In this document: in pieces, positions 4,141 through 21,934 of the stretch
Layout of the letters: every line of letters begins with the position of its first letter
How positions within the stretch are numbered: position 1 is the stretch's first letter
NCBI GenBank assembly: GCA_023381945.1
Contig: JAMCQY010000265.1
Location: 445 to 22,670 of the forward strand
Source of the DNA: Deltaproteobacteria bacterium
GTDB lineage: Bacteria > Desulfobacterota > Desulfobaccia > Desulfobaccales > 0-14-0-80-60-11
Reading direction: 5' to 3'
Length of the DNA stretch: 22,226 nt
Position numbers and translations under genes: made by a program
The notes under the pieces: model-generated
The model's database searches: none
What the model was told of the DNA's origin: nothing
The model's input: only the letters and a program-made list of their open reading frames with translations

Positions 4141-4193
4141 GTAGGGGCGCTGGGTGTGCGCGCTCCTGGGCGGACACATGGGTCCGCCCCTAC
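4141..4193. repeat. REP-like palindromic unit, same family as 19803-19860
   Basis: The outer arms GTAGGGGC (4141-4148) and GCCCCTAC (4186-4193) enclose an inner hairpin, GGGCGGAC (4168-4175) with GTCCGCCC (4182-4189). The block around ACACATGGGT is nearly identical to one in the element between hdrA and mvhD. It lies in the gap between glnB and the Rieske-FAD gene. No gene is seen in 4072-4350. Confidence 0.65.
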
Positions 4194-6165: not shown

Positions 6166-6639
6166 ATGTTTCCTTTAAAAAAGATTCTTTGCCCTGTTGA
6201 TTTTAGCGAACCTTCCCACCACGCCCTCAAGATCGCCGTGGAAATGGCCCGGCAATTTGGCGCGGCCCTGAACGTGATTCATGTCATCCCGCCGGTGCCG
6301 GTGCATTCGCCCTATCCGGACCCGCCGAATGCCTCCAGCGATTATGAGCCCCTCCACCAGCAGGAATTGGCCCTGGAAAGCGAAGAATCCTTGAAAAATA
6401 TGATCAGGTGGGTGCCAAAGGAGATTCCCACGCTGGCCACGGTCGTGACCGGTGACGCAGCCGAAGAGATTCTGGCCTTTGCGGCCAAAGAACATATCAA
6501 TCTCATCGTCATCGCCACCCATGGTCTGACGGGCTGGCGGCATTTGATCACCGGTTCAGTCACCGAAAAGATTGTGCGTCAGGCGTCTTGCCCGGTGCTG
6601 ACCATCCGGCCGCCGGCTGGAGAAAAGCAGGAAAAATGA
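6166..6639 (+). CDS. Universal stress protein (UspA family)
   Basis: A 157-residue single-domain Usp protein. It begins MFPLKKILCPVDFSEPSHHALKIA, the usual first strand and helix, and ends with IVIATHGLTGWRHLITGSVTEKIVRQASCPVLTIRPP. The G-x2-G...GS pattern in that segment is the ATP-binding signature of the UspFG/MJ0577-type branch, so it probably binds ATP. These cytoplasmic proteins rise under stress or energy limitation, but their exact task is unclear. The start has a good GGGAGG ribosome site. It diverges from the Rieske-FAD gene across a 228-base gap and precedes the GAPDH gene by 165 bases. Confidence 0.92.
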   Translation: MFPLKKILCPVDFSEPSHHALKIAVEMARQFGAALNVIHVIPPVPVHSPYPDPPNASSDYEPLHQQELALESEESLKNMIRWVPKEIPTLATVVTGDAAEEILAFAAKEHINLIVIATHGLTGWRHLITGSVTEKIVRQASCPVLTIRPPAGEKQEK

Positions 6640-14996: not shown

Positions 14997-15016
14997 GGGC
15001 GGCTCGTGAGCCGCCC
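14997..15016. repeat. REP-like hairpin
   Basis: GGGCGGCTC (14997-15005) and GAGCCGCCC (15008-15016) form a perfect 9-pair stem, followed by CTACC. It differs from the previous hairpin by compensating changes in the stem. Confidence 0.65.
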
Positions 15017-15048
15017 CTACCAATAATATTCCCAAAACCATAAAAAAT

Positions 15049-15360: not shown

Positions 15361-15427
15361 TTTAATAACAAGGGAGTGACTGCTTCGACAATTTCGCAGG
15401 CCTCTTACCTTAATTCCGGGTGAGTTG

Positions 15428-15808
15428 ATGACCGAGAAATGCAACACGCTGTTAATTGCCGAGCGCGGCTGCGAGCTGGCGCAAGGTCTCTGTTCCTGGC
15501 TGGAGGCACAGGGCCATCGATTTAAGCTGGTGGACAACCTCAAGGACCTCCTCATGACCATTCAGAATGAGAAGGTCAATGTCCTGGTGATGGATGTGCG
15601 CCTGCCTGAGCCCATGGGTTTTGAGGCGATTTCCATCATCAAGGGGTTGGACAAGAAGCTCCCCATCATCATCACCGCTGATGAAAACAATCCGGAACAG
15701 GAAAGCCGGATCAGGCAAAAAGGCATCTTTTATTACCATGTAAATTCGTTTGGCATGGATGAACTCATCTTAGCCATCTCCAATGCCCTGGGGCGCTCAT
15801 CCCACTAA
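15428..15808 (+). CDS. Stand-alone receiver-domain protein, degenerate
   Basis: A 126-residue protein made of a single response-regulator receiver domain with no output domain. The phospho-acceptor Asp is at about residue 56 (VLVMDVRLPEP), and the switch Thr is in PIIITADEN. Two other active-site features are altered. The acidic pair after strand 1 is reduced to one Glu (LLIAERGC). The conserved Lys-Pro after strand 5 is missing (FYYHVNSFG where KPF is usual). It may thus be a pseudo-receiver or a phosphorylation-independent adaptor. An upstream in-frame TTG at 15425 is also possible. It is the first gene after the sigma-54 promoter and lies 16 bases before metF, so it is probably co-transcribed with the methylene-THF reductase genes. 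Confidence 0.78.
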   Translation: MTEKCNTLLIAERGCELAQGLCSWLEAQGHRFKLVDNLKDLLMTIQNEKVNVLVMDVRLPEPMGFEAISIIKGLDKKLPIIITADENNPEQESRIRQKGIFYYHVNSFGMDELILAISNALGRSSH

Positions 15809-15824
15809 TCCAGAGGGGAGTTCG

Positions 15825-16709
15825 ATGCAATTACAAAAGAAACTGGCTTCCGGAGAATTTGTCGTGCTGGCGGAGATGGAGCCGCCCAAGGGGACCGATG
15901 TCGCCGCCATGGTGGCCAATGCCGGCAGTGTCAAGCGTCAGGTGGATGCCTTTGTCATCCCAGAGATGAGCAATGCGGTCATGAAGATGAGTTCTCTGGG
16001 CGGCGCCCTGCTGTTGCAGAGCAAAGGTTTGGAAACGGTGATGCAATGTTGCTGCCGGGACCGCAACCGCCTGGCCCTGCAGGCCGACTTGCTGGCCGCC
16101 CAGGCGTTGGGGGTGCCCAACATTATGGCGGTCTCGGGTGAGGAGATCACTTTTGGTGACCACCACGAGGCCCGGGCGGTCAATGATCTCAGTCTGCTGC
16201 AACTGCTCGGCGCCATCCAAACCATGCAGACGGGGCGGGACTTGGCCGGGGTGGATCTCCAGGGGGCGCCACGCTTTTTTGTGGGCGCCACCGTGAAGAT
16301 TCCCGCGAGCGATGCGGCCCTGTTGGATGAGGTGGCGGAACTGGATAAAAAGATCGCCGCGGGGGCCTCTTTTTTCATCACTCCGCCGGTTTACGATGTA
16401 GCGCCTTTGGCCAAATTCACCGGCTATTTGAAGGGCCGGAACGCTGCCATCATCCCCACCGTTCTGCTCCTCAAGTCCGTGGGCATGGCCCGCTATATTA
16501 ACCGGCATCTGGAACCCAAGATACCGGAAGAGTTCATCACCCGGATTCAAAAGGCACCGGACCGGGTGCGGGAATGCGTGCAGATCGCCGCGGAAATTAT
16601 TATAGCGCTGAAGGACAAGGGTTTTAACGGAGTGAACATCTCCACCATCGGCTGGGAGGACAAGCTGCCGGCTATCCTGGCTGCGGCCAAGTTGGAGTTT
16701 GGGGTTTAG
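15825..16709 (+). CDS. Methylenetetrahydrofolate reductase-like protein (first paralogue)
   Basis: A 294-residue MTHFR-family TIM barrel. It would reduce methylene-THF to methyl-THF or run the reverse reaction, with FAD. The N-terminal LAEMEPPKG keeps the acidic residue and the PP of the family's EFFPP-type motif. CRDRNRLALQADLLAAQALGVPNIMAVSGEE matches the folate/FAD-binding segment, and FFITPPVYDV the C-terminal strand. The start at 15825 has a GAGGGGAG ribosome site. It is shorter than the second MetF in this cluster and clearly diverged from it. It also has three adjacent cysteines (Cys75-77) just before RDRNR. It is followed by hdrA after 33 bases. It could serve a different substrate or electron donor. 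Confidence 0.82.
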   Translation: MQLQKKLASGEFVVLAEMEPPKGTDVAAMVANAGSVKRQVDAFVIPEMSNAVMKMSSLGGALLLQSKGLETVMQCCCRDRNRLALQADLLAAQALGVPNIMAVSGEEITFGDHHEARAVNDLSLLQLLGAIQTMQTGRDLAGVDLQGAPRFFVGATVKIPASDAALLDEVAELDKKIAAGASFFITPPVYDVAPLAKFTGYLKGRNAAIIPTVLLLKSVGMARYINRHLEPKIPEEFITRIQKAPDRVRECVQIAAEIIIALKDKGFNGVNISTIGWEDKLPAILAAAKLEFGV

Positions 16710-16742: not shown

Positions 16743-19700
16743 ATGCCCAAAAAGAAAGATCCAATGGTGAAGGAAGAGTCCCGGAGCGGCAACATCGGCT
16801 CCGTGATGTTGGTGGGTGGAGGGATTGCCGGCATCCAGGCTTCCCTGGATTTGGCCAATTCCGGCTTTTTTGTCCATTTGGTGGAGTCCAAGCCCGGCAT
16901 CGGCGGGACCATGGCCCAGTTGGACAAGACCTTTCCCACCAATGACTGCTCCATGTGCATTCTCTCTCCCAAGCTGGTGGAATGCGGGCGGCATCTCAAC
17001 ATCGAGATCCTGGCCCCGGCCCGGGTGGAGTCCATCAGCGGCGAAGCAGGCCGCTTCACCGTCAAGGTGGCGCAGCCGGCCCGCTATATCGATATGAGCA
17101 AATGCATCGGCTGCGGCGTCTGCGCCGAGAAATGCCCCAAAAAGGTGCCGGACGAATTCAACCAGGGCCTGGGCAACCGCAAGGCGGCCTACGTCCTGTA
17201 TCCCCAGGTGGTGCCGCTGAAGTACGCCATCGACAAGGCCAATTGCCTCTATTTCAAGAAAGGCAAGTGCAAGGCCTGCGAGAAGTTCTGCCCGGCCGGT
17301 GCCGTGAACCTGGAGGAACAGGACAAGGAGCGGGAGATCGAGGTCGGGGCGGTGATCATGACTCCGGGGTTCCAGACCTTCGATCCAAGCAAATTCAAGT
17401 CTTATCACTATGCCAGCTTCCCCAACGTGGTCACTTCGCTGGAATTTGAGCGGATTTTGAGCGCCTCCGGCCCCTTCGGCGGCCACCTGGTGCGGCCCTC
17501 GGACCACCAGGAACCAAAGAAGATCGCCTGGCTCCAGTGCGTCGGCTCCCGGGACGTCAAATACCACTCCTACTGCTCGTCGGTCTGCTGCATGTACGCC
17601 ATTAAAGAAGCGGTGATCGCCAAGGAGCATTGCAAGGATTACGAACTGGATGCCGCCATCTTTTTCATGGACATGCGGACCTTCGGCAAGGAGTTCGAGC
17701 AGTATTACAACCGGGCCAAAGAGCAAGGTGTGCGTTTCATTCGCTCGCGGATCCATACCATCGACCCGGCCCCCAATGACAACCTGATCATTAGCTACAC
17801 GGATGAAAGCGGGGTCAAGCGCTCCGAAGAGTTCGACCTGGTGGTCCTGTCGGTGGCCATGGAGGTGAGCGAACCGGCCAAGCGCCTGGCCCAGACGCTG
17901 CAGGCGGACCTGAATCAGCACGACTTCGTCCAAACCCGACAGTTCGCGCCGGTGGTCTCTTCCCGGCCCGGAGTATACGTCTGCGGCGCCATGCAGGGCC
18001 CCAAGGACATTCCCGAGTCGGTCATGCAGGCCTCGGCGGCCGCGGGTGCGGTGAGCGCCGCCCTGGGCGATGCCCGCTGGACCCGCACCGCATCCAGGCA
18101 GGTTCCCGAAGCTAAGGAAATCAAGCCGGAGGATGCACCTCGCATCGGCGTCTTTGTTTGCAACTGCGGCATCAATATCGGTGGCATCGTCGATGTGCCT
18201 GGTTTGGCCGAATATGCCAAGACCCTGCCCAACGTGGTCTATGTGCAGGAAAATCTTTTCACCTGTTCCCAGGACACCCAGGTAACCATGGCCAAACTCA
18301 TCGAAGAGCACCAGCTCAACCGGGTGGTGGTGGCAGCCTGCACACCGATCACGCATGAGGCCCTGTTCCGGGAGACTTTGATCGACGCCGGGCTGAATAA
18401 ATACCTCTTCGAGATGGCCAATATCCGCAACCAGGACTCCTGGGTGCACATGCAGGAACCGGAGAAGGCCACGGAAAAAGCCAAAGACCTGGTGCGCATG
18501 GCGGTGGCCCGGGCCTCGCTGCTCAAGCCCCTGATGGAAAAGCCCCTGACCATCAACCAGCGGGCTCTGGTGATTGGCGGCGGTGTGGCGGGACTGAACG
18601 CCGCCCTCAACCTGGCGGACCAGGGGTTCGAAACCGTCATCCTGGAAAAGGAAGATCGGTTGGGCGGCAACGCCTGGAACATCCACCACACCCTCGAAGG
18701 CTCGGAAGTGGCGCCTTACCTCGACAACCTGATCAATCTGGTAAAAACCCATGACAGGATCCAGGTGCTCACCGGAGCCCTGGTGGTAGGGTTCAAAGGC
18801 TACAAAGGCAACTTCACCACGGAGGTGCTGGTGGGGCCCGGCATGTACGAACGCAAGATCGACCACGGCGTCACCGTGGTGGCCACCGGGGCCCATGAGT
18901 ACCAGCCCAAGGAGTTCCTCTACGGCCAGCATCATCGCATAATGACTCAGTTGGAGTTGGGCCGGTTCCTCCACGAGAAACCGGCGGAAGCAGCCGGCTG
19001 GGGCCGGGTGGCCTTCATCCAGTGCGTGGGCTCCCGCAACGAGGAGAACCCCAACTGCAGCCGCATCTGCTGCCAGGGCGCGGTAAAATACGCCCTGCAA
19101 TTGAAAAAGAACAATCCGGAGACCGAAGTGCTCATCCTTTACCGGGATATGCGCACCTACGGCTTGATGGAAGACTACTACAAGGAGGCCCGGGACCACG
19201 GGGTGCTCTTCGCCCGTTTCGACCCGGAGTGTCTGCCGGAGGTCAAGAATGAAAACGGTGATTTAAGCATCACCTTCATCGACCACGTCCTGGAACGGCC
19301 GGTAAGCCTGCCGGTGGATGCCGTGGTCCTGAGCGCCGGAGTCCGGCCTAATGATACCGAGGAACTGGCCTCGCTTTTGAAGATCCCCAGGAACGCCGCG
19401 GGATTCTTCATCGAGGCCCATGCCAAGCTGAGGCCGGTGGACTTCGCTTCGGAGGGCATTTTCCTCTGCGGCTTGGCCCACAATCCCAAGCTTATCACCG
19501 AGTCCATCGCCCAGGCCCAGGCTGCGGCCTCCCGGGCCGGGGCCTTCCTGGCGGACACCCGGCAGACCATCAGCGGCGTCACCGCCCATGTGTCGCCGGA
19601 GCGCTGCGCCGCCTGCCTGGTGTGCGTGCGCACCTGTCCGTACGGCGTGCCCCAGATCAATAAGGAGAACGTCTCGGAGATTAACGAGGCCCTGTGCCAG

Positions 19701-19799
19701 GGTTGCGGCACCTGCGCCTCGGAGTGTCCGGCCAAGGTGATCCAGGTGTCGCATTTTGAGGATGACCAACTGAGCGCCAAGATTAAGACGCTGTTTTGA
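16743..19799 (+). CDS. hdrA: Double HdrA-type iron-sulfur flavoprotein
   Basis: A 1018-residue protein with two HdrA-like halves. Residues 1 to about 450 form a QmoA-like FAD module: GGGIAG at 25-30, ferredoxin-type cysteines 121/124/127/131 and 176/179/183, and QCVGSRDVKYHSYCSSVCC at about 265-283. Residues 466-1018 form a classical HdrA: an N-terminal CNCG domain (about 470-600), a second FAD motif GGGVAG at 612-617, a second QCVGSR...CSRICC block (760-777), and two C-terminal [4Fe-4S] motifs (Cys955/958/961/965 and Cys985/988/991/995). HdrA flavins carry out electron bifurcation or confurcation, with ferredoxin on one branch. Here the partners should be MvhD and MetV/MetF. No hdrB or hdrC is in the window. 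It is probably cytoplasmic, with no signal peptide or membrane segment. Confidence 0.9.
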   Translation: MPKKKDPMVKEESRSGNIGSVMLVGGGIAGIQASLDLANSGFFVHLVESKPGIGGTMAQLDKTFPTNDCSMCILSPKLVECGRHLNIEILAPARVESISGEAGRFTVKVAQPARYIDMSKCIGCGVCAEKCPKKVPDEFNQGLGNRKAAYVLYPQVVPLKYAIDKANCLYFKKGKCKACEKFCPAGAVNLEEQDKEREIEVGAVIMTPGFQTFDPSKFKSYHYASFPNVVTSLEFERILSASGPFGGHLVRPSDHQEPKKIAWLQCVGSRDVKYHSYCSSVCCMYAIKEAVIAKEHCKDYELDAAIFFMDMRTFGKEFEQYYNRAKEQGVRFIRSRIHTIDPAPNDNLIISYTDESGVKRSEEFDLVVLSVAMEVSEPAKRLAQTLQADLNQHDFVQTRQFAPVVSSRPGVYVCGAMQGPKDIPESVMQASAAAGAVSAALGDARWTRTASRQVPEAKEIKPEDAPRIGVFVCNCGINIGGIVDVPGLAEYAKTLPNVVYVQENLFTCSQDTQVTMAKLIEEHQLNRVVVAACTPITHEALFRETLIDAGLNKYLFEMANIRNQDSWVHMQEPEKATEKAKDLVRMAVARASLLKPLMEKPLTINQRALVIGGGVAGLNAALNLADQGFETVILEKEDRLGGNAWNIHHTLEGSEVAPYLDNLINLVKTHDRIQVLTGALVVGFKGYKGNFTTEVLVGPGMYERKIDHGVTVVATGAHEYQPKEFLYGQHHRIMTQLELGRFLHEKPAEAAGWGRVAFIQCVGSRNEENPNCSRICCQGAVKYALQLKKNNPETEVLILYRDMRTYGLMEDYYKEARDHGVLFARFDPECLPEVKNENGDLSITFIDHVLERPVSLPVDAVVLSAGVRPNDTEELASLLKIPRNAAGFFIEAHAKLRPVDFASEGIFLCGLAHNPKLITESIAQAQAAASRAGAFLADTRQTISGVTAHVSPERCAACLVCVRTCPYGVPQINKENVSEINEALCQGCGTCASECPAKVIQVSHFEDDQLSAKIKTLF

Positions 19800-19802
19800 G
19801 TT

Positions 19803-19860
19803 GTAGGGGCGGACCCGCGTGTCCGCCCAAATAAGGGCGCACACATGGGTGCGCCCCTAC
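19803..19860. repeat. REP-like double hairpin inside the operon, between hdrA and mvhD
   Basis: The outer arms GTAGGGGC (19803-19810) and GCCCCTAC (19853-19860) enclose hairpins GGGCGGAC/GTCCGCCC (19807-19828) and GGGCGCAC/GTGCGCCC (19835-19856). The second matches the 4141-4193 element closely. It starts 3 bases after the hdrA stop and ends 21 bases before the mvhD start. Confidence 0.75.
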
Positions 19861-19881
19861 GATAACCCTAAAGGAGCCCCC

Positions 19882-20343
19882 ATGATGGAACCGTTTGAGC
19901 CGAAAATCGTCGGGTTCTGTTGCCACTACTGAGCGTATTCCGCCGCGGACCTGGCAGGTTCGATGCGACTGCAATACCCGCCCAACGTGCGGATCATCGA
20001 GGTCCCGTGCACCGGCAAGGTGGACCTTATCCACATCCTTCAGGCTTTTGAATACGGGGCCGACGGGGTCATCGTGGTGGGCTGCATGGAAGGCGATTGT
20101 CATTACCAGCGAGGCAATCTGTTCGCCAAGACCCGGGTGAAACGGGCTAAGGAAATCCTGGACAAGGTGGGCCTGGGGGGCGAGCGCGTGGGGATGTTCA
20201 ATCTCTCCTCCGGCATGGGGGGCAGGTTCGCCGAGATTGTCACGGAGATGACCAACAAAATCCTGGAACTGGGACCGAGCCCCATTCGAGGTGTGAAAGA
20301 AAAGGCTAAGGCAGCTTTCGCCGCCGGGGAGGTAACCACATGA
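19882..20343 (+). CDS. mvhD: MvhD/FlpD-type [2Fe-2S] subunit, predicted selenoprotein with in-frame TGA
   Basis: A 153-residue MvhD-family protein, if the TGA at 19930-19932 is read as selenocysteine (residue 17). Translation from ATG 19882 gives MMEPFEPKIVGFCCHY, then TGA, then AYSAADLAGSMRLQYPPNVRI. The aligned family motif is C-x-x-C/U near GADLAG, where VhuD-type proteins carry Cys or Sec. The other conserved cysteines follow (VPCTGKVD, VVGCMEGDCHYQRGN). The ribosome site AAAGGAG precedes the ATG, and the reading frame is intact on both sides, so a plain nonsense mutation is unlikely. Without read-through, only a truncated form from the ATG at 19963 would be seen. MvhD links an electron-donating partner to HdrA. 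Its stop overlaps the metV start (ATGA). Confidence 0.9.
19944..19967 (+). promoter_or_regulatory. Predicted bacterial SECIS hairpin in mvhD
   Basis: Just after the in-frame TGA, GACCT (19948-19952) pairs with AGGTT (19956-19960; one G-U pair at its base) around a three-base loop GGC (19953-19955). An outer CGC/GCG pair, at about 19944-19946 and 19965-19967, extends the helix. The loop starts 21 bases after the TGA and begins with G. These features fit bacterial SECIS rules as remembered: loop 16-37 bases downstream, with a G in the first two loop positions. Confidence 0.6.
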
Positions 20344-21008
20344 TCAAGGCAAAACCCAAGCCGTTGGAAGAGATTATCGACAATGTCAAGGATTTCCAGA
20401 GGTTGCTCATTGCCGGCTGCGACGGCTGCGTCACCGTCTGCGAGGCCGGCGGCCTCAAAGAGGCGAAGATTCTGGCCGCGGCCCTAAGGCTCTACTTCAC
20501 CCAGGCGGGCAAACAGGTCCAGGTGGATGAAACCAGCCTCACCCGCCAATGCGAAAAGGAGTACCTGGCGCAGCTCAGCGACCGCATGGACGGCTACGAC
20601 GCCGCGGTCTCCCTGGCTTGCGGCTGCGGCATCCAGTACCTGGCGGAGATGTACAACAACAAGCTCGTCTTCCCCGGGGTGGACACCTGTTTTATGGGGG
20701 TCAACGAGGAGCGGGGGCTCTACTCCGAGCGCTGCGCGGCCTGCGGCCGCTGCATCCTGGCCGAGACCGGCGGCATCTGCCCCATCGCCCGCTGCTCCAA
20801 GCGCATGCTTAACGGCCCCTGCGGCGGCTCCGACAAAGGCAAGTGCGAAGTCAACCCGGAGATTCCCTGCGGCTGGGAGCTGATTTACGAACGCCTCAAG
20901 ACCCTGGGGCAACTGGACCGCTTCGAAAGGCCGGTGGTGCCCAAAGACTGGACCACTTCCCGGGATGGCGGACCCCGCAAGATTGTCAGAGAGGACTTAC
21001 GGATATGA
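20340..21008 (+). CDS. metV: Methylenetetrahydrofolate reductase C-terminal (zinc/iron-sulfur) subunit MetV
   Basis: A 222-residue MetV protein (MTHFR_C family). It forms a heteromer with MetF and links it to the HdrA/MvhD electron-transfer module. Conserved features are AGCDGCVTVCEAGG (about 25-38), the SLACGCGIQYLAE segment, and a C-terminal cysteine-rich block CAACGRCILAETGG, CPIARCSKRMLNGPCGGS, which would hold an iron-sulfur or zinc site. The end of the sequence, EIPCGWELIYERL, is also typical. The start overlaps the mvhD stop by ATGA, and its own stop overlaps the second metF by ATGA. This arrangement points to translational coupling of three subunits. Confidence 0.92.
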   Translation: MIKAKPKPLEEIIDNVKDFQRLLIAGCDGCVTVCEAGGLKEAKILAAALRLYFTQAGKQVQVDETSLTRQCEKEYLAQLSDRMDGYDAAVSLACGCGIQYLAEMYNNKLVFPGVDTCFMGVNEERGLYSERCAACGRCILAETGGICPIARCSKRMLNGPCGGSDKGKCEVNPEIPCGWELIYERLKTLGQLDRFERPVVPKDWTTSRDGGPRKIVREDLRI

Positions 21009-21934
21009 GCGAGACGACTCCCAGCAAACTCCAGAAAATTATCGCCTCCGGTCAGGTGGCCGTCACCTCCGAAGTGGGTCCGCCCCGCAATGCCGACGGC
21101 GCGGTGATCGAACATAAGGCCAAGCTGATCAAAGACCACGTGGACGCCATCAACGTCACTGACAACCAGACTTCAGTGTGCCGCATGTGCTCCCTGGCCT
21201 GCTGCATTCGCATCAAGCTCATGGGGCTGGAGCCCATCCTGCAGATGACCACCCGGGACCGTAACCGCATCGCCTTGCAGAGCGATATCCTGGGGGCGGC
21301 AAGCTTCGGGATCAACAATATCCTCTGCCTGACCGGCGACCACCAGCACTTCGGCGACCACGCCACCTGCGCCAATGTCTTTGACCTGGATTCGACGCAG
21401 CTGGCCATGGCGGTGAAGATGATGCGGGATGAAGGCAAGATGCTCGGCGGTTTTGAATTCCAGGTGAAGCCCCAGATGTTCATCGGCGCCGCCGTCAACC
21501 CCTTCGCCGGTCCCAACGTCTACATGCGGGCGGTCCGCATGGGCAAGAAGGCCGCGGCGGGGGTGCAATTCGTCCAGACCCAGTGCATCTATAACCTGGA
21601 CAAATTCAAGGAGTTCATGAAAATCGCCGCGGACAAGGGCCTGACGGAAAAAGTGGCCGTCCTGGCGGGCATTACCCCCATGAAAAACGTGGGCATGGCC
21701 AAGTATATGCAAAAACGGGTGCCGGGCATGGATGTTCCCGATGAGATCGTCAAGCGCATCGGTGGCGTGCCCAAGGAGAAGCAGGCAGCGGAAGGCATCA
21801 ACCTGGCCGTCGAGCAGATCGAGGAACTCAAGAGCGTCCCGGGAGTCAAGGGCTTCCACCTTATGGCCATCGAATGGGAGGAGAAGGTCCCGGAAATCGT
21901 GGAGCGGGCTGGTCTGTATCCCCGGCCGCAGTAG
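21005..21934 (+). CDS. metF: Methylenetetrahydrofolate reductase (MetF, second paralogue)
   Basis: A 309-residue MTHFR-family TIM barrel, immediately coupled to metV. It keeps TSEVGPPRN at the N-terminus, VTDNQTS, TTRDRNRIALQSDILGAASFGINNILCLTGD, and FVQTQCIYNLDKF. The segment after NQTS reads CRMCSLACCIRIKL, four cysteines (about 59, 62, 66 and 67) where the upstream paralogue has MKMSSLGGALLL and where many MetF proteins, as remembered, have serine and alanine. This may be lineage-specific metal or redox chemistry. Coupling to metV makes this the MetF of the complex. It would work in the methyl branch of the Wood-Ljungdahl pathway, in either direction. A 116-base gap and a possible hairpin separate it from the next regulator. 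Confidence 0.92.
   Translation: MSETTPSKLQKIIASGQVAVTSEVGPPRNADGAVIEHKAKLIKDHVDAINVTDNQTSVCRMCSLACCIRIKLMGLEPILQMTTRDRNRIALQSDILGAASFGINNILCLTGDHQHFGDHATCANVFDLDSTQLAMAVKMMRDEGKMLGGFEFQVKPQMFIGAAVNPFAGPNVYMRAVRMGKKAAAGVQFVQTQCIYNLDKFKEFMKIAADKGLTEKVAVLAGITPMKNVGMAKYMQKRVPGMDVPDEIVKRIGGVPKEKQAAEGINLAVEQIEELKSVPGVKGFHLMAIEWEEKVPEIVERAGLYPRPQ

Follow-up and report, generated by a model that had tools for sequence, protein, structure and literature searches.

A Predicted UGA-Encoded Selenocysteine in MvhD, Encoded between hdrA and metVF in a Deltaproteobacterium

The mvhD gene of the window (the entire 22,226-nucleotide stretch of a deltaproteobacterial contig that was analyzed) is almost certainly a bacterial selenoprotein gene. 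A SECIS element and SelB would direct the insertion of selenocysteine (Sec) at residue 17, yielding an FlpD/MvhD protein that, together with MetV-MetF, would carry electrons between a partner and HdrA. By virtue of UGA readthrough, MvhD is very probably a selenium-containing electron-transfer protein, as predicted from its sequence, and the strongest evidence for this reading is the near-invariance of the codons that follow the UGA. The features discussed below are listed in Table 1.

Table 1. Features of the mvhD region and its gene cluster in the window
Feature	Coordinates	Strand	Basis and remarks
Response-regulator receiver protein, head of the cluster	15425..15808	+	PF00072, E = 9.5e-13
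MetF2, second metF-like gene, upstream of hdrA	15783..16709	+	PF02219, E = 9.6e-26
hdrA, 1018 aa, two HdrA-like halves	16743..19799	+	HdrA2, Pyr_redox_2, Fer4
Imperfect palindrome, 26-base arms, in the hdrA-mvhD gap	19803..19860	.	Palindrome search
Ribosome binding site AAGGAG	19871..19876	+	Sequence; 5 bases to ATG 19882, 8 to ATG 19885
mvhD (flpD), 153 aa, predicted Sec17	19882..20343, stop included	+	PF02662 match; translation with TGA = U
UGA predicted to be read as Sec, residue 17, CxxU motif with Cys14	19930..19932	+	Residue-17 codons in related loci
Bacterial SECIS, predicted	19941..19967	+	Fold of -13.6 kcal/mol; near-invariant wobble bases
SECIS upper stem, 7 bp, with loop GGC at 19953-19955	19946-19952/19956-19962	+	Fold
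SECIS short lower stem	19941-19943/19965-19967	+	Fold
metV, 222 aa	20340..21008	+	PF12225, E = 1e-37; ATG overlaps the mvhD stop (ATGA)
metF, 309 aa, methylene-THF reductase family	21005..21934	+	PF02219, E = 3.4e-37 (scanned as 20996-21931); ATG 21005 overlaps the metV stop (ATGA)

The mvhD reading frame and the codon for residue 17

A first-pass annotation of this DNA described a frame that is open from ATG 19882 to 20343 except for a single TGA. Translation confirms this, with TGA 19930-19932 as the sole internal stop and TGA 20341-20343 as the terminal one. When the internal TGA is rendered as U, the 153-residue product begins with MMEPFEPKIVGFCCHYUAYSAADLAGSMRL. The ribosome binding site that had been placed before the full-length start is indeed there (Table 1), and AGGAG-type sites are also found upstream of mvhD in the eight relatives compared (L001 to L007 and L009). 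The FlpD profile (PF02662) matches this product over its entire length (positions 1 to 123 of 123; E = 1.9e-50; 170.4 bits against a cutoff of 22.3). The match spans residues 9 to 131 and hence both sides of the TGA, which lies, as had been proposed, within the cysteine motif of MvhD (here CxxU). Residues C14, U17, C43, C68, and C73 occupy columns that are conserved among the relatives as the Cys positions of FlpD/MvhD. The closest PDB chain is 9sfi_K (VhuD, the delta subunit of a hydrogenase). Alignment of the 153-residue translation with MvhD/VhuD proteins, a check suggested in the annotation, places an X of this chain, presumably Sec, opposite residue 17; a second X is seen in the residue-68 column.

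Standard gene calling had been expected to give only a fragment from position 19963, and the list of open reading frames does contain, in the mvhD frame, nothing but 19963-20343 (126 aa, starting at residue 28). A plain gene call thus removes the CxxU motif, so that a working subunit would be absent from metabolic models built for these uncultured bacteria.

A scan of genome contigs, in which no search pattern spanned residue 17, produced 141 candidate loci, of which the best 80 were kept. In the 93 tblastn rows from these 80 loci, the residue-17 codon is TGA in 49, TGC in 27, TGT in 16, and TCT in 1, with no TAA or TAG; TGA and Cys (43) together account for 92 of the 93 rows, all but the one with Ser. 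Among the same best 80 of 141, the seven closest loci (78 to 90% identical) all have TGA; the nearest relative is L001 from genome G001, with a 90% identical protein. The single Ser codon belongs to an mvhD gene located beside metVF (L065:8001-8399) that also lacks one residue close by; its genome has both tRNA-Sec and selB over the cutoff. Either the Sec/Cys residue has truly been lost here or the sequence contains an error. Owing to the gap in its row, L065 was left out of the codon counts, which, with the window added, comprise 50 TGA genes and 43 Cys genes.

A tree of the 93 rows could draw on 132 columns, a small number for this many sequences. It joins the window to L001 (100/96), and both belong to a group of 8 TGA genes (100/99). 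Three changes of the TGA label are needed on this tree: 48 TGA genes fall together (87/80, not a starred fork), and two lie outside, L054 from Bacillota and the paralog L052:7052.

The predicted SECIS hairpin and the silent sites after the UGA

Bacterial SECIS rules, as excerpted from PMC13188914, specify a loop of 3 to 9 bases with a G in its first two positions, a stem of 4 to 16, a location 16 to 37 bases from the UGA, and a folding energy of at most -7.5 kcal/mol. The window hairpin agrees with these rules, having a loop of 3 (GGC), a stem of 7, 20 bases between the UGA and the loop, and an energy of -13.6 kcal/mol. As coded here, the rules are passed by 42 of the 50 TGA genes, 11 of the 43 Cys genes, 108 of 1,000 window resamples, and 351 of 2,000 resamples over all TGA genes; given the passing Cys genes and the latter resamples, they are less specific than the codons themselves. 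The fold is likewise ordinary when compared with dinucleotide shuffles, both for 19924-19982 (-14.6 kcal/mol; z = 0.07) and for 19930-19970 (-13.6 kcal/mol; z = -0.85), and 598 of 1,000 synonymous resamples of the window fold equally stably. The proof of the Sec reading is comparative, not energetic. No SECIS was found by the same rules after the stop UGAs of mvhD (20341), metV, and hdrA; the palindrome behind the hdrA stop UGA fails by spacing alone (15 bases, with 16 needed). In the window, Rfam at the gathering threshold gave no match, and ARAGORN found no tRNA.

The codons for residues 22 to 26 are nearly fixed in the 50 TGA genes, the window included: GCG, GAC, CTG, and GCA are each found in 50/50 and GGT in 48/50, both exceptions being GGG at residue 26. 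The respective values in the 43 Cys genes are 14/43, 28/43, 25/43, 2/43, and 9/43, and the background shares of GCA and GGT codons across the TGA loci amount to 0.20 and 0.24. After thinning of the TGA genes to <75% DNA identity over residues 31 to 130, which retained 19 genes, each of the five codons is found in 19/19, and all other conserved degenerate columns printed vary in codon. In all 50 TGA genes, the next least variable conserved column is Phe56, with TTT in 45/49. The near-invariant wobble bases, seen in TGA genes only, are 19947, 19950, 19953, 19956, and 19959. All five occur jointly in 48/50 TGA genes, 0/43 Cys genes, and 25 of 20,000 synonymous window resamples. The invariance is partly a matter of shared descent, since 48 of the 50 TGA genes cluster on the tree; in other conserved columns of these clustered genes, the wobble bases have diverged. 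L054 and L052:7052, which stand apart on the tree, have the same five codons. This pattern points to selection acting on the putative SECIS beyond the protein sequence, and the fixed block of five codons (15 bases) that follows the UGA offers a simple signature for finding further such genes.

Translation might instead start at ATG 19963, in which case the real protein would have 126 residues and the upstream part would be a relic. Database proteins of this size are common, as automatic callers make them: among the 120 protein matches listed of 7,958, the window's own included, 57 do not exceed 126 aa, including every one of the 45 best. However, such a protein would lack two positions of the FlpD motif, Cys14 and residue 17, the PF02662 match begins upstream of it at residue 9, and the wobble bases are fixed just before ATG 19963, where a relic would drift; a start at this position is highly improbable. 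To judge from the proteins rather than from their DNA, many of the short MvhD sequences in the databases were probably cut at the same UGA.

Selenocysteine machinery and Sec-mvhD paralogs in related genomes

Among the genomes behind the 80 loci, 32 were chosen for a test of tRNA-Sec and selB; selA and selD were also tested in 16 of these. In 14 control genomes, tRNA-Sec, selB, and selD each had matches in all 14, over the cutoff in 5, 2, and 2, respectively, whereas selA matched in 4 and was over the cutoff in 1. Matches below the cutoff being uninformative by this measure, only those above it were counted. Ten genomes have TGA at their best locus; 9 of them contain tRNA-Sec (each with at least 67 bits), 9 selB, 9 selA, and 8 selD. 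All four are present in 7 of the 10 (G001, G002, G003, G006, G007, G009, and G022), including the nearest relative. As for the remainder, G004 has only a selB fragment, selD of G005 is not over the cutoff, and G020 (L029, TGA), a 1.9-Mb assembly that may be incomplete, has selB, with tRNA-Sec, selA, and selD not over the cutoff. The 22 other genomes encode Cys (21) or Ser (one) at residue 17; tRNA-Sec is over the cutoff in 16 of them, so a Cys gene does not imply a Sec-free cell. The remaining six include one with selA, G031. This genome (L077) also has selB and selD over the cutoff, and its tRNA-Sec scores 43.7 bits against an Rfam cutoff of 47, reflecting either an incomplete genome or a diverged tRNA.

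In eight genomes (G001, G002, G003, G004, G006, G007, G009, and G022), a selD match over the cutoff holds one in-frame TGA, which suggests that selD, too, is a selenoprotein gene in these organisms. There are two such matches in G022, and G004 has an additional selD copy without a TGA.

The TGA/Cys pairing at residue 17, the wobble constraint, and the sel genes of the relatives all support the earlier proposal that Sec is inserted at this position. The two findings named there as refuting it, missing sel genes or a miscalled TGA, are not borne out by the relatives. Genome-wide reassignment of UGA, or its reading by a near-cognate tRNA without a SECIS, would fit a frame that is open under codes reading TGA as an amino acid. 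But hdrA, mvhD, and metV themselves end in TGA, relatives encode tRNA-Sec and SelB, and such decoding gives no reason for the wobble constraint, which leaves it very little probability. Next to none is left for an error of sequencing or assembly, or for a recent nonsense mutation in a decaying gene: the TGA of the window is seen in a single contig, but its recurrence at the same codon in 49 of the 93 rows from related loci makes a base error at 19930-19932 very unlikely, the residues before it are conserved (Cys14 in 50/50 TGA genes), and the frame is intact beyond it.

Of the 29 genomes searched from the order of G001, 24 contain the codon pattern of the UGA and SECIS, which goes with the Sec reading, at 36 places in all; the reversed pattern has no matches in these 29 genomes. 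Because the search pattern dictates residues 22 to 26, their constancy at these places carries no weight as evidence; residues 27 and 28, outside the pattern, are encoded by TCG ATG at 36/36 places. The places were fetched with approximately 1.5 kb on each side where the contig allowed. At 18 of them, metV lies beside mvhD, and the other 18 have hdrA and no metV within the stretch fetched (L113 stops at a contig edge), so the order appears to keep two kinds of Sec-mvhD. In nine genomes, 35 of 102 PF02662 matches hold one TGA, with at least three per genome.

One such paralog, L052:7052-7486, is a second Sec-mvhD located beside another hdrA in the same assembly as the metVF-linked L003. Compared with L003, L004, and L006, it agrees at 98% over residues 17 to 31 and at 62 to 65% over residues 35 to 130 (63% for L003). 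Gene conversion between mvhD paralogs at residues 17 to 31 is possible, although shared constraint can yield much of the same pattern. The broader idea of a clade-wide selenium-dependent methylene-THF reductase step, with Sec-MvhD wiring HdrA to MetVF and a fixed-wobble UGA-SECIS cassette common to two mvhD paralogs and maybe moved by gene conversion, is tentative and on the whole somewhat doubtful.

Gene cluster, proposed electron path, and comparison with known systems

Profile searches give the gene order response regulator, MetF2, HdrA, MvhD(Sec), MetV, and MetF. The order is the same in L001, L002, L003, and L006 and, as far as the contig reaches, in L007; the response regulator and MetF2 occupy the same place in all five. 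A diverged MetF-like gene upstream of hdrA is also seen at other loci, e.g., L043, L046, and L063. The metV start lies within 700 bases of mvhD in 47/50 TGA genes versus 22/43 Cys genes. The NCBIfam HdrA2 model matches hdrA in three stretches (E = 6.4e-293; 973.6 bits, below the curated cutoff of 1100). The adjacency of hdrA, mvhD, metV, and metF on one strand is that of the Hdr-type methylene-THF reductase. Scans of six cluster proteins in the window and of six flanking ORFs in L001 and L003, kinases and response regulators among the latter, detected neither hdrB nor hdrC; both genes could be located elsewhere in the genome. The cluster is therefore likened to this reductase and not filed as a member.

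The window HdrA and that of L006 lack an insert of approximately 470 aa, after approximately residue 170, that is present in L001, L002, L003, and L007. This insert looks like a GltD-type NAD(P)H/FAD module, so Sporomusa-like and Moorella-like forms of HdrA seem to coexist in the clade. Collapse of a tandem repeat was rejected as the origin of the short window HdrA: the part absent relative to L002 is a different inserted stretch, hdrA of L001 and L002 has only 20- to 25-base repeats, and L006 is short too. In L001:6300-6500, hdrA is split in two frames near 6400-6416, with approximately 60 residues fewer than in the window, through either a deletion or an assembly fault. The hdrA-mvhD gap holds a different palindrome in L001 and none in L002, L003, L006, and L009. 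Palindrome ends of the form GTAGGGGCG...CGCCCCTAC occur in the window at 19803-19860, 4141-4193, and 15012-15020, and the window also contains an IS200-like Y1_Tnp gene (PF01797; 11314-11787, minus strand); these are presumably REP elements with a RAYT-type transposase.

In the proposed mechanism, the ribosome would start at ATG 19882 and reach the UGA at 19930, where SelB with Sec-tRNA, bound to the hairpin at 19946-19962, would insert Sec at residue 17. Insertion by SelB, Sec-tRNA, and a hairpin is established for bacteria, and the window would use the same machinery. The UGA at 20341, with no SECIS after it, would end translation, giving a full-length FlpD/MvhD iron-sulfur protein. Judging by the family, Sec17 would replace one Cys of a CxxC pair that is thought to help hold the cluster and would be a ligand or a neighbor of the FlpD cluster. 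HdrA, the flavoprotein partner, would exchange electrons with MvhD, and MvhD with another partner; this path is drawn by analogy only. Methylene-THF reduction, or methyl-THF oxidation in an acetate oxidizer, might be coupled to the HdrA flavin, as suggested by the operon and by the Moorella and Sporomusa systems.

Sec-FrhD/MvhD/VhuD is a listed prokaryotic selenoprotein family (PF02662, CxxU) in the excerpted text of PMC13188914. According to similar excerpts, Sec-FrhD was described in 2006 in Syntrophobacter fumaroxidans (8 copies), Syntrophus, Moorella thermoacetica, and others, and the same study counted three Cys-to-Sec and three Sec-to-Cys events (PMC1794560). Sec was also assigned to mvhD1, 2, 3, and 5 of Desulfobacterium autotrophicum HRM2 (PMC2702500) and to mvhD of Desulfococcus multivorans (PMC5109826), and the selenoprotein family was named for a marine deltaproteobacterium (PMC8318568). 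The use of Sec in deltaproteobacterial MvhD, which the first-pass annotation had mentioned, is thus on record (PMC2702500, PMC5109826, PMC1794560), and descriptions of Sec-MvhD/FrhD in methanogens, clostridia, and deltaproteobacteria go back to 2006 or earlier. The window gene resembles the published deltaproteobacterial and clostridial ones in its UGA-encoded Sec, in a location that is commonly beside hdrA, and in coming from anaerobes of broadly the same group. The neighbors named in the excerpts are hdrA/hdrL, frhAG/mvhAG, glpC, fdh, and dsr, with no metVF among them; some published copy, e.g., that of Moorella, may well be metVF-linked. With the methanogen VhuD (9sfi_K), the window protein shares a nonstandard residue in the residue-17 column; in contrast, VhuD is named as a hydrogenase subunit and has X in the residue-68 column, where the window has Cys.

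The HdrCBA-MvhD-MetVF systems of Moorella and Sporomusa, in the parts of PMC9430772, PMC5736913, and PMC9012536 that describe them, likewise bring together HdrA, MvhD, MetV, and MetF, with an HdrA of two fused halves, and a pull-down with tagged MvhD in Sporomusa recovered HdrA, HdrB, and MetF (PMC9430772). Like the reported Sporomusa HdrA and unlike that of Moorella, which holds a GltD domain (PMC9430772), the window HdrA is without a GltD-type insert. The window differs from both systems in the lack of hdrB and hdrC in the cluster genes examined and in the second metF upstream; the former feature is shared with the MetFV-HdrA-MvhD clusters mentioned for Syntrophoarchaeum (PMC9012536). The word selenocysteine is absent from PMC9430772, which deals with the Hdr-type methylene-THF reductase, and no literature tying Sec-MvhD to metVF was found in open papers, taken without supplements; given that scope, the apparent novelty of the metVF link should be taken with reserve. 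Against these known systems, the clade-wide MetVF link and the near-fixed SECIS are modestly new.
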